The notes beneath the pieces were generated by a model. The model did not search any database, was not told the origin of the DNA, and saw only the letters and a program-made list of their open reading frames with translations. 49,976 bases of DNA from Frankiales bacterium. GTDB taxonomy: Bacteria; Actinomycetota; Actinomycetes; Mycobacteriales; Jatrophihabitantaceae. The position numbers and the translations under genes are program-made. Positions 37,160-41,710 of the stretch are shown here, in pieces. Within the stretch, counting starts at the first letter, position 1; every line of letters begins with the position of its first letter. The stretch is taken from assembly GCA_025966315.1 (NCBI GenBank), contig JAOPUZ010000013.1:1-49976 (forward strand), written 5' to 3'.

Positions 37160-39976
37160 TCAGATGAGTGAGCGCAGGACGTACTGCATGATGCCGCCGT
37201 GCCGGTAGTAATCCGCCTCACCAGGTGTGTCGATGCGCAGCTTCGCGGTGAAGGTCTTGTCGCCCGCCTGCACGGTCACCTCGGCCGGGATGCTGCCATC
37301 GTTGAGACCGGTCACACCGGTGAACGAGAAGGTCTCCTCGCCGGTGAGACCGAGCGACTCGGCCGACTCGCCCTCGTTGTACTGCAGCGGCAGCACGCCC
37401 ATTCCGATCAGGTTGGACCGGTGGATGCGCTCGTAGGATTCGGCGATCACGGCTCGGACGCCCAGCAGCGCGGTGCCCTTGGCCGCCCAGTCCCGAGACG
37501 AGCCGGTGCCGTACTCCTTGCCGGCCAGTACGACCAGCGGTGTGGACTGCGCGATGTAGTTGACCGAGGCGTCGAAGATGGTGCTGACCGGAGCGTCGGC
37601 CGCCTTGTCCGCGGCCGTGAAGTCCCGGGTGAAGCCGCCTTCGGTGCCCGGGGCGAGCTGGTTACGCAGCCGGATGTTGGCGAACGTGCCGCGGATCATC
37701 ACCTCGTGGTTGCCGCGACGGGATCCGTAGGAGTTGAAGTCCTTGCGGTCAACCCCGTGCTCGGCCAGGTACTTGCCCGCGGGCGAGTCCCCCTTGATCG
37801 AGCCGGCCGGGCTGATGTGATCGGTGGTCACCGAGTCGCCGACCATGACCAGCACCCGGGCGCCCTCGATGTCGGTCACCGGCGATGGTTCGCGCGCGAG
37901 GTCGTCGAAATACGGCGCCTTGCGGACGTAGGTCGAGTCCGGGTCCCAGGTGAAGGTCTGGCCTTGCGGGGTCGGCAGCGATTGCCAGCGCTCGTCGCCG
38001 GCAAAGACGTCGGCGTAGTCGTCCACGAACATCTCGCGCGCGATGGCTGAGCTGACGACGTCGGAGATCTCCTGCGGGCTGGGCCAGATGTCACGCATGT
38101 AGACCGGGTTGCCCTCGGTGTCGTTTCCCAGTGAGTCGTTGTAGAGGTCGACGTCCATCGACCCGGCCAACGCGTACGCCACCACCAAGGGCGGGGACGC
38201 CAAGTAGTTCATCTTGATGTCCGGATTGATGCGGCCTTCGAAGTTCCGGTTGCCCGACAGCACGGCGGCGACCGCGAGGTCGGCAGCATTGATCGCCGCG
38301 CTGACTTCTGGAATCAAGGGGCCTGAGTTGCCGATGCAGGTGGTGCAGCCGTAACCCACGAGATTGAACCCGAGTTTGTCCAGATACGGCGTGAGACCGG
38401 CGCGGTCGTAGTAGTCGCTGACCACCTTCGACCCCGGGGCCAAGGTCGTCTTCACCCACGGCTTGCGGGTCAGGCCCTTCTCGACCGCCTTCTTGGCCAG
38501 CAGCGCGGCAGCGATCATGACCGAGGGGTTGGAGGTGTTCGTACACGAAGTGATAGCCGCGATGGTCACCGCGCCGTGGTCTAGTTCGAAGCTGGTGCCG
38601 TCGGCCAGCGTGACCCGGGTGGGCTTGCTCGGCCGGCCGCCGTCGGTGGGCGCACAGGAGATGAGCTCACCCGGCGCGGCCTCGTCGTGCTCGCTGCTGC
38701 TGGGGGAGTCACTGGCCGGGAACGACTCGGCGACAGCTTCGTCGTAGCCGTGCTCGTCGGCGTCGGAAACGTAGGCGCCGAGTGCGTTGCGGAAGTTGGC
38801 CTTGGCGTCGGTGAGCGAGACCCGGTCCTGCGGACGCTTCGGACCGGCGATGGACGGGACCACGGTGGAGATGTCGAGCTCGAGGTACTCGGAGTACTTG
38901 GCCTCGACCGACAAATCGTGCCAGAGACCCTGGGCTTTGGCGTACTGCTCCACCAAGGCGATCTGCTGCTCATCTCGGCCGGTCAGGCGCAGGTACGTGA
39001 TCGTCTCGTCGTCGATGGGGAAAACCGCGATCGTGGAGCCGTACTCAGGGCTCATGTTGCCGATCGTGGCCCGGTTGGCCAGTGGCACCGCGGTGACGCC
39101 CGGCCCGTAAAACTCGACGAACTTTCCGACCACTCCGTGCTTGCGCAGCATCTCGGTGATGGTGAGCACCAGATCGGTCGCGGTGACACCCTCGGGCATC
39201 TCGCCGGTGAGCTTGAAACCGACCACCCGCGGGATCAGCATCGACACCGGCTGCCCGAGCATGGCCGCTTCGGCCTCGATACCACCGACGCCCCAGCCGA
39301 CGATGCCCAGACCGTTGATCATCGTGGTGTGCGAATCCGTGCCGACGACGGTGTCCGGGTAGGCCTGCAGCTCGTCGCCGTCCGGCGTCGAGACCGTGCG
39401 GCCAAAGATCACCCGCGCCAGGTGTTCGATGTTGACCTGATGGATGATGCCGGTGCCCGGCGGAACCACCTTGAACTCATCGAAGGCGGTCTGGCCCCAG
39501 CGCAAGAACTGGTAGCGCTCGCGGTTGCGCTCGTATTCGAGGTCGACGTTGCCGACGAAGCTGTCCGGGCCGCCGAACAGATCAGCGATCACGGAGTGGT
39601 CGATCACCAGTTCGGCCGGCGCCAGCGGGTTGATCTTGGCCGGGTCGCCGCCGAGGGCGGTCACCGCCTCACGCATCGTGGCCAGGTCGACGACAGCAGG
39701 CACCCCGGTGAAGTCCTGTAGCACGACCCGGGCCGGGGTGAATTGGATTTCGGTGTCGGGTTCGGAGTTCGGGTTCCAGTTGCCCAGCGCGGAAACGTGT
39801 TCGGCGGTGACGTTGGCGCCGTCCTCGGTCCGCAGCAAGTTCTCGAGCAGGATCTTGAGGCTGAACGGCAACAGGTCCGAACCGGGCACCTTGTCCAGTC
39901 GGAAGTACGTATAGGTCGTGTCACCGACCTGCAGCTGGTCTTTGGCTTGGAAACTGTTCGGGTTGCCTGCTGGCAC
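37160..39976 (-). CDS. acnA: Aconitate hydratase AcnA
   Basis: Converts citrate to isocitrate in the TCA cycle with a [4Fe-4S] cluster. The 938-residue protein is the AcnA/IRP-like type. The cluster Cys are Cys478 (SCTNTSNP), Cys544 and Cys547 ([14 protein letters not shown]). Other marks are [28 protein letters not shown], and near the end [15 protein letters not shown]. The acidic insert [12 protein letters not shown] is typical of actinobacterial members. The frame is open to 40117, but the GTG at 39976 has GAGGAG just upstream and gives the normal N-terminus. It is transcribed alone, divergent from the NlpC/P60 gene, and depends on the Fe-S machinery encoded 15 kb away. Confidence 0.96.
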
Positions 39977-40185
39977 GGTGCTCTCCTCGTCACGGGCGAA
40001 TGCGGCGAGGCCAGCGACCCGTGATGGCGCCGGCGCCTCAGCGCCGCCCGTCGCCACCGTCCTCTGCCTACCGGGTCTGCGGACCCAACCGCTCCTGCTC
40101 ATCCCATCTTTCCCCATTGTGGGATCCCAGTTGGCGCATGGGTTCAGTTTTCGCGATGCGGAGTCGATGTATTGGTCGATGTGAC
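39977..40185. other. Divergent acnA / NlpC/P60 intergenic region, left part
   Basis: The first 209 bp of a 354-bp gap between divergent genes. It must hold the aconitase promoter. It includes GTGAC at 40181-40185, which abuts the 9-bp array but is out of its register. I see no convincing riboswitch, tRNA or small gene. From memory, M. tuberculosis has a small membrane protein gene, Rv1476, at this point; no counterpart is visible here. Confidence 0.4.
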
Positions 40186-40275
40186 GTTACGCAAGTGATA
40201 GACGTGACTCAGGGGACCTATGAGACTGTAGTAACCAGAGAAACTCATGTTACCGGCGTTACCAGTGGCGCTCAT
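40186..40275 (+). repeat. Array of ten 9-bp units with a G-N-N-A/C-C/T core upstream of the NlpC/P60 gene
   Basis: Reading from 40186 in steps of nine, the units begin GTTAC, GTGAT, GTGAC, GGGAC, GAGAC, GTAAC, GAAAC, GTTAC, GTTAC and GGCGC. Position 1 is G in all ten, position 4 is A in nine and position 5 is C in nine. Five units are exact GTNAC. It ends 55 bp before the GTG start. This looks like a cooperative binding array for a response regulator; MtrA, whose sites contain GTNAC-like direct repeats and which controls ripA in mycobacteria as I recall, is the obvious candidate. Confidence 0.6.
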
Positions 40276-40330
40276 GATGCGGAACTGGCATCCTGTTGCG
40301 TGGCGAACTACGACGTTGAGGGGTTGTCCG

Positions 40331-41710
40331 GTGTTCCGACAGGCGACGAAAACAGCTCGAACGCCACGGGGAATGAAGCTCGCAGTGTGCTCGGCCGCCG
40401 TAACGGCGCTGGTACTGACCTGCGGTGCGCCCGTTTCGGCTGCCCCGAAACCGCCGCCGAACCCGTCGAACCAGCAACTCTCGGCCGCCCAGGCAGCGAA
40501 GAACAACATGGCCGCCCAGGTCGGGCGGCTGTCGGCGCTGCTGGCCCAGGCTCAGAACCAGCTCGCCCAGCTCACGTACAAGAAGGAATTGGCCGAGCAG
40601 AAATGGGCCCAGGCCGTTTTCGCCCTCGACCAGGCCAAGGCCCAGGCGATCGCGGCGCAGCAGGCGGTGGTCGCGGCCCAGACTCAGATCACGGCCGCCC
40701 AGGCCTCGCTGAAGAACTTCGTCCGCAACAGTTATATCCAGCCCAATGCCACCTCGGGCGCGACCAGCCTGCTCACCGCCACCGACCCGAATGCGCTGCT
40801 GCAGACGGGCGACTACGTCAATTTCATCGCTACCCGGCATCTGGACGCGATGAGCTCGTTGGACCGAGCCACGGTGGCCAAGTCCAACGCCGACGCCAAA
40901 GCGAGGCAGGCGGTGCTGCTCCAGCAGCGGCTGACCACTGCCGCTGCCAACGCGAAGGACGCCGCCCTGGCCGCGGTGCAGGCCGAGCAGCAACAACAGG
41001 CGATGCTGCAACAGCAGTCGGCGAGCTACCAGAGTCAGCTGGCGGCGGCCCAACTCAAGCTCGCCAACCTCAACGGCCAACGCGCCAAATACCTCGCGTA
41101 TCAGAAGGAACAAGCTCGACTGGCCGCCATCCGGGCCCGTCAGGCCGCGTTGCGTAGGGCCGCGGCCGCCCGGGCCGCCGCGGCTGCGGCCGCCGCGGCC
41201 AACAACAACAACACCCAGTCCGGCGATAACACCTATCTGCCTCCTGCCAACTCGATGGGCGGCTGGACGGCAGCCAAGGGCAACGCCGCGGTGGCGCGGG
41301 CCCTGCACACGCTCGGCACGCCGTACGCCTGGGCCGGTGGCGGCTACAACGGCCCGACCTACGGCGTGAACTCGCCCGGCACGGACGGCTGGAACGACAG
41401 CGCAGTGTACGGCTACGACTGCTCCGGTCTGTCCATGTACGCGTGGGCGCCGCAGGGCCTGTACATGGCCCACTACGCCGCTACCCAATACACCCAGGCC
41501 GGCTCGTATCACCCGAGCGCGGGCAATTTCCAGCCCGGCGATCTGCTGTTTTGGTCGGGTGACGGCAGCATCGGTGGCATACATCACGTTGCCATCTACA
41601 TCGGCAACGGCAACGTGATCCAGGCACCCAACTCCGGTTCATACGTCCAGATCACCCCGTGGGACCAGGTCTCGCCGGACTACTTCGGAGCGACTCGCCC
41701 GCTGACCTGA
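40331..41710 (+). CDS. Secreted NlpC/P60 peptidoglycan endopeptidase (RipA-like)
   Basis: A 459-residue exported cell-wall hydrolase that should cut peptide stems of peptidoglycan, as RipA does at septation. The order is signal peptide (about residues 15-38, ending VSAA), a long Ala/Gln-rich coiled-coil region (about 45-310), an Ala- and Asn-rich linker, and a C-terminal NlpC/P60 domain. The catalytic Cys is about Cys364 in YDCSGLSMYAW and the His about His419 in IHHVAIYIG. The domain has an insertion before the Cys (YNGPTYGVNSPGTDGWNDS). I chose GTG 40331 because GAGGGG precedes it; an internal ATG 14 codons later would also work. From memory its place after aconitase matches ripA/ripB, with only one copy here. 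Confidence 0.9.
   Translation: MFRQATKTARTPRGMKLAVCSAAVTALVLTCGAPVSAAPKPPPNPSNQQLSAAQAAKNNMAAQVGRLSALLAQAQNQLAQLTYKKELAEQKWAQAVFALDQAKAQAIAAQQAVVAAQTQITAAQASLKNFVRNSYIQPNATSGATSLLTATDPNALLQTGDYVNFIATRHLDAMSSLDRATVAKSNADAKARQAVLLQQRLTTAAANAKDAALAAVQAEQQQQAMLQQQSASYQSQLAAAQLKLANLNGQRAKYLAYQKEQARLAAIRARQAALRRAAAARAAAAAAAAANNNNTQSGDNTYLPPANSMGGWTAAKGNAAVARALHTLGTPYAWAGGGYNGPTYGVNSPGTDGWNDSAVYGYDCSGLSMYAWAPQGLYMAHYAATQYTQAGSYHPSAGNFQPGDLLFWSGDGSIGGIHHVAIYIGNGNVIQAPNSGSYVQITPWDQVSPDYFGATRPLT

Follow-up and report, generated by a model that had tools for sequence, protein, structure and literature searches.

A conserved array of 9-bp direct repeats upstream of the ripA-type gene of a Frankiales bacterium, a candidate operator for a BldC-like regulator

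Introduction

RipA is described as the major cell-separation hydrolase of M. tuberculosis, and the same source calls its control controversial and poorly understood (PMC12977500). The window analysed here, a stretch of 49,976 nucleotides from a Frankiales bacterium (contig JAOPUZ010000013.1), carries a run of 9-bp repeats in front of a RipA-type hydrolase gene, and the question is what these repeats are and which protein reads them. A preliminary description of the window had counted ten units at 40186-40275 and proposed a cooperative operator for an OmpR-family regulator such as MtrA.

Results

The array and its register in the window

The features of the locus are as follows.
40186..40284, + strand: 9-bp array of 11 head-to-tail units without gaps; unit G-T/G-N-A/G-C-N-N-N-Y (consensus taken from relatives)
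40266..40271, + strand: TGGCGC where a -35 would stand, with 17 bp to the -10; a poor match to TTGACA
40286..40294, + strand: TGG-CATCCT, an extended -10-like element (TGGCANNNT) with a putative promoter role
40318..40323, + strand: probable ribosome binding site GAGGGG; AAGGGG or GAGGGG is found in same-genus loci too
40331..41710, + strand: gene of a RipA-type NlpC/P60 peptidoglycan hydrolase, probable start GTG 40331
37160..40117, - strand: divergent aconitase gene acn, 40117 being the furthest possible start

The GTNAC pentamers described earlier do start at 40186, 40204, 40231, 40249 and 40258, and the column counts of the ten units were reproduced (G at position 1 in 10/10, A at position 4 in 9/10, C at position 5 in 9/10). 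An eleventh unit, GATGCGGAA at 40276-40284, follows in the same register beyond those ten, and G opens 11/11 units. Half-sites of GTNAC type make up 5 of 10 window units, the rest being near to it.

The register was compared with chance in several ways. The unit pattern matched 8 times in the window against 0.55 expected, with all 8 matches inside the array. The ten-unit score was 28/30; the best among 40 Markov sequences of 50 kb reached 22, and none of the rival periods from 6 to 15 scored above 23 on either strand of the window. When column agreement was measured with no preset pattern, the observed value at period 9 was matched in 0/200 Markov sequences, and for the remaining periods between 5 and 15 the number of such sequences was never below 51 of 200. 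The 9-bp array is thus real. A search of 39900-40600 against Rfam returned no hit at E up to 1, and TRF at a score of 30 did not call the array.

Conservation of the register in relatives

A search with the hydrolase gave matches in 41/41 genomes, the named relatives among them being Jatrophihabitans and 'Pseudonocardiales bacterium' MAGs. Of 30 loci, 23 were aligned, comprising the window, 21 loci from its family and one from another family (L024); L019 and L026-L031, where the match had no gene start or lay far off, were left out. One of those excluded, L026, scored as an array in a later matrix scan (44.7). The anchor of the alignment, TGGCA, was picked to maximise the register, and the control was a repeat with other 5-mers: the register score with TGGCA averaged 9.1/10, with 8 or more in 22/23 loci, and the best of 37 other 5-mers, each present in at least 18 loci, averaged 4.7.

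It is clear from the alignment that the promoter-proximal units are in register in the 22 other ortholog promoters. G stands at unit position 1 in 114/115 units (23/23 at each of U-4 to U-1, 22/23 at U-5), and C at unit position 5 in 20, 23, 20, 18 and 15 of 23 loci from U-5 to U-1. Over the 23 loci the z value was 10.9 at lag 9 and -0.1 at lag 11. The units of the relatives drift to GTTTC, GGCGC and GGGGC, and the number of units varies as well, the window having the longest run with 11 units vs a median of 5, and L008 and L009 just 1 and 2 consecutive strict units. A register conserved while the spacer bases vary, which the preliminary description had named as support for its operator, was found both in these relatives and in the mycobacteria described below. 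A period test over 7-13 with no preset pattern favoured 9 in 31 and 12 in 24 of 76 named loci, which taken alone is weak.

Some further repeats were seen outside the alignment. On the reverse strand of L019, GCAACGCNN occurs five times some 80-120 bp ahead of where the match begins, possibly as coding sequence; this repeat adjoins a RipA ortholog from another family of the order. Weak possible 9-bp arrays were also present in loci with NlpC/P60 genes from Actinomadura barringtoniae and Corynebacterium (L087 near 2323, L109 near 522, L123 near 2037).

Coding frames and promoter elements

The hydrolase product matches Pfam PF00877 (E 7e-17), D-C-S-G is invariant across 10 aligned hydrolase proteins, and the start gtgTTCCGA is conserved in L003, L005, L006 and L007. 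On the other side, the acn start at 40117 is probably too far upstream; GTG 39976 looks conserved in relatives, and a start there would make the intergenic gap wider.

The earlier statement that no gene covers the array holds for the probable genes, but not for the listed ORFs, which overlap it. ORF 40000-41157 keeps the unit frame open in the window, and the units translate as x-T/A-x, as would be expected if the array, with its three-codon period, were a coding relic or encoded a leader peptide of tripeptide repeats; similar-looking coding tandem repeats also occur elsewhere in the genome. However, the unit frame is broken in relatives by in-frame stops (L020, L140, L150, L151) and by 1-2-nt slips (L005 and L007), and TGGCA keeps third codon bases while the first base varies. 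Such a leader peptide or relic is already largely contradicted, and we regard it as highly improbable. Since the unit frame of the relatives contains these stops and slips, and since GTG 40331 is the most likely start of the NlpC/P60 gene, the array is taken to be covered by no gene. Elsewhere in this genome, the tail of an apparent KdpD-like kinase gene carries a coding 9-bp tandem repeat (L061:8919-9027, G000:C53), which shows that coding repeats can mimic the array.

The last unit of the array runs straight into TGG-CATCCT. The closing T of this putative -10, which is not part of the TGGCA anchor, is present in 23/23 loci, as is the T-G-G of the element in the -35 place (40266-40268). A scan for consensus sigma-70 promoters found nothing, so the promoter reading rests on conservation.

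Mycobacterial ripA promoters and the question of MtrA

A unit matrix made without the window's sequence also gave hits ahead of ripA in loci of Mycobacterium and Mycolicibacterium. Thirty mycobacterial ripA loci were considered, which are the best matches among 60 genomes of the genus and hence a non-random, related set. The anchor unit GTGACGTAC was found in 29/30 of them, usually in the order GTGACTAAA GTTTCTTTA GCGTCAGAT GTGACGTAC GGTGCAATC or near to it, and a one-base slip frequently follows. In the 29 loci the z values were 16.8 at lag 9, 13.2 at lag 18 and -2.2 at lag 11; because the loci are best matches and related, these values are not probabilities.

An MtrA-like ortholog is present in the Frankiales genome by its C-terminal sequence (L045), the motif of which we take to identify it as such. 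In mycobacteria ripA is reported as an MtrA target (PMC6265350, from the part of the article available), and IS1549 in the ripAB promoter displaced reported MtrA sites (PMC12338722). Together with the GTNAC half-site, which is as in MtrA motifs, these points could be explained by a non-canonical MtrA operator in which monomers occupy GTNAC half-sites every 9 bp. However, MtrA repeats have a period of 11 bp in the available text on M. tuberculosis, C. glutamicum and S. coelicolor (PMC6265350, PMC3353115, PMC5650626), the array is not a direct repeat of that period and gives no lag-11 signal, and the relatives' units drift from GTNAC as mentioned above. Furthermore, the mycobacterial ripA promoters carry an MtrA-type 11-bp pair (ATCAC-N6-GATAAC and similar) just upstream of the array, in strict form in 22/30. 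As this pair sits separately, the array is probably not an MtrA operator when judged by sequence, and we consider the non-canonical form quite unlikely. Of the earlier proposal, a cooperative protein operator in front of ripA is retained, and an OmpR-family reader such as MtrA is not.

Between the MtrA-like pair and the 9-bp array, an McdR-like palindrome (AATnACAnnnnTGTnATT) was found upstream of ripA in 27/30 mycobacterial loci (the mycobacterial ones of L140-L156, and L296-L333), the motif being taken from the accessible portion of PMC9040748. Direct control of ripA by McdR is possible. A pair with 15-bp spacing in 18/30 loci appears to consist of one MtrA half-site and one palindrome arm. 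As predicted from these motifs, the mycobacterial ripA promoter is a stack of three elements, of which the 9-bp array is the third.

Arrays beside rpf genes and elsewhere in the genome

The unit matrix was also applied to 27 Rpf-domain loci from seven genomes on two strands, and the arrays tested for significance are the best of these 54 scans. Arrays were present beside rpf genes of four mycobacteria (L379, L381, L378, L380), and the Frankiales genome has a weaker one of five 9-bp units (L370:1079-1123, G000:C38), some 115-160 bp ahead of the point where an Rpf-domain gene probably starts. All five scores lay above the best obtained from 2000 Markov sequences. In the lag-9 test, 1, 1, 4 and 1 of 300 sequences reached the values of the four mycobacterial arrays and 36/300 that of L370; for lag 11, L381 and L380 gave low counts as well (17 and 18 of 300). 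In all four mycobacteria the array has the opposite orientation to rpf, those of L379 and L381 facing a divergent neighbour and those of L378 and L380 sitting between a tandem pair of rpf genes.

Over the 45% of the genome covered by the scan, no other intergenic array stood above the permuted controls, and other equally high scores were coding tandem repeats or noise only; hence there is no sign of a large regulon. In the scanned part, the promoter match ranking second, at L171 19451 between genes read as mreB and ndk, had 17.7 bits and topped three permuted matrices (best 13.1), with only three units fitting.

Candidate readers of the array

BldC is reported to bind head-to-tail on 9-bp direct repeats with an arginine on each 5'-YpG step; its known sites have 2 and 4 repeats, one crystal holds 11 protomers, and a change of AATT to GGCC abolished binding (PMC5859096). 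Its targets include cell-wall genes (PMC6428758). The array likewise consists of 9-bp direct repeats in variable number. G itself stands at unit position 1 with a frequency of 0.91-1.00, and a pyrimidine precedes it in 78% of the relatives' units, 62% of the mycobacterial and only 55% of the window's units. BldC expects an AT element at unit positions 6-9. These positions form the AT-richest tetrad in mycobacteria (0.67) and in U-5 to U-1 of the relatives (0.56), but rank fourth in AT in U-5 to U-3 of the relatives, and in the window's 11 units they have an AT content of 0.545 vs 0.568 for two other tetrads. Against the published BldC repeats, the AT profile fitted in register no better than in some other rotations.

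BldC proper was examined as a common reader and is rejected, as the gene is missing from 4/4 array-bearing mycobacteria (G041 best match E 2e-4; G045, G056 and G054 none; arrays at L296, L297, L307 and L322). It might still be the reader in the window's family, with a different reader in mycobacteria. The Frankiales genome has a BldC ortholog of 70 aa (phmmer to 6ama, E 9e-29) which keeps the contact residues named in the available text of PMC5859096 except for Ala15, a backbone contact changed to Ser, and matches at E <=0.001 were obtained in 37/41 relatives, a few being weak paralogs. On the other side stand its lack in the mycobacteria and the weak AT element of the window's units, and such a split appears to us rather unlikely. 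Upstream of this genome's bldC, inspection by eye revealed no array. An 11-bp pair, GTTACCAAANNGATAC / GTTACCAAATAGTGAC, was seen there about 129-137 bp upstream of bldC in 4/5 same-genus loci compared, the window's own genome included (L269, L270, L271, L272; absent in L267). It fits a site of MtrA or GlnR type, GlnR sites resembling those of MtrA.

A second candidate is a small BldC-like wHTH protein of Rv0500A type, which in this genome has 67 aa and is encoded at G000:C24:25242-25445 on the minus strand. The gene was found in 10/10 genomes tested, four of them with the mycobacterial array; being present in every genome tested, it discriminates only against BldC proper. The residue aligned with BldC Arg30, the YpG contact, is kept in 12/12 aligned proteins. 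In NCBIfam the protein falls below the BldC cut-off (27 bits vs 77) and is recognised only as an excisionase-type wHTH; by PDB sequence similarity it matched only a BldC chain (6amk, E 0.0057). The gene order here, with names read from translations, is senX3-regX3-ppx-proC-HTH, presumably the order of the Rv0500A locus, beside proC. We also take rv2390c to adjoin rpfD. Rv0500A is a reported repressor that binds the rv2390c promoter directly and not the kdpF promoter, as stated in the part of PMC6375644 available. In the literature searched, no reports were found of an Rv0500A-type protein stacking on DNA. Taken together, we slightly favour a BldC-like wHTH protein as the reader; for the Rv0500A-type paralog in particular the chances seem to us a little under even.

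Discussion

The array represents a known kind of conserved operator at a new location, and its ligand is very probably a protein. We propose, at about an even chance, that a BldC-like filament forms on this ripA operator and that its most likely reader is the Rv0500A-type protein. The array would be built for a protein that places one protomer on every 9 bp and stacks head to tail like BldC, with a recognition arginine docked on each unit's opening Y-G step. Were transcription to start near 40301, the filament would span about -115 to -17 and cover the -35 region up to the extended -10, so that RNA polymerase would be shut out, and its length (eleven units here vs a median of five) might set the sharpness of the switch. 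We lean towards repression rather than activation of ripA, because the array lies over the -35 region and because of how BldC and Rv0500A are reported to behave.

Alternatively, the operator could serve a different regulator with 9-bp steps, for example one that places a dimer on each short near-palindrome in the way of RptR on TAGCTA; RptR binds cooperatively to three 9-bp repeats over a -10 box, according to the accessible text (PMC12255303). The unit consensus matches none of the compared motifs exactly, and GTNAC is palindromic. However, units of the relatives (GTTTC, GGCGC, GGGGC) and of the mycobacteria (GTTTC, GCGTC, GGTGC) are mostly non-palindromic, and a directional reader therefore fits better; we consider the dimer-type regulator unlikely. 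The BldC-like protein stays the preferred reader.

A conserved ripA operator that is neither MtrA-like nor McdR-like would mean that at least one further regulator acts on ripA, and the gene of the candidate reader is small and could easily be tested in laboratory strains. More tentatively, the Rv0500A-type protein, present in every actinobacterial genome tested, may form filaments and regulate by coating long 9-bp arrays at the cell-wall hydrolase genes ripA and rpf, as a third, length-tuned control layer of ripA in mycobacteria next to the adjoining MtrA-like site and McdR-like palindrome. Among the matches listed, titles and abstract openings hold no description of a 9-bp array at ripA.

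The known systems resemble the array to different degrees. MtrA operators (ripA, oriC, fbpB and others) share GTNAC-like half-sites, direct repeats and the same target gene, but they have an 11-bp period and two half-sites, and in mycobacteria a separate MtrA-like pair stands beside the array. The RptR operator, in the available portion of PMC12255303, also has contiguous 9-bp direct repeats over a promoter with cooperative binding and repression, but in three repeats, each a TAGCTA palindrome for a dimer, whereas here 11 mostly non-palindromic units are found. The Streptomyces BldC operators (whiI, smeA-sffA; PMC5859096, seen in part) share directional 9-bp direct repeats, a variable number of them and, to a varying degree, the pyrimidine-G step; they differ in having 2 to 4 repeats with an AT-rich core, against 11 repeats with a weak AT core here, and the four array-bearing mycobacteria lack BldC proper. 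With the Rv0500A site in the rv2390c promoter (PMC6375644, from the part available), the likeness is that the candidate reader comes from the same protein family.
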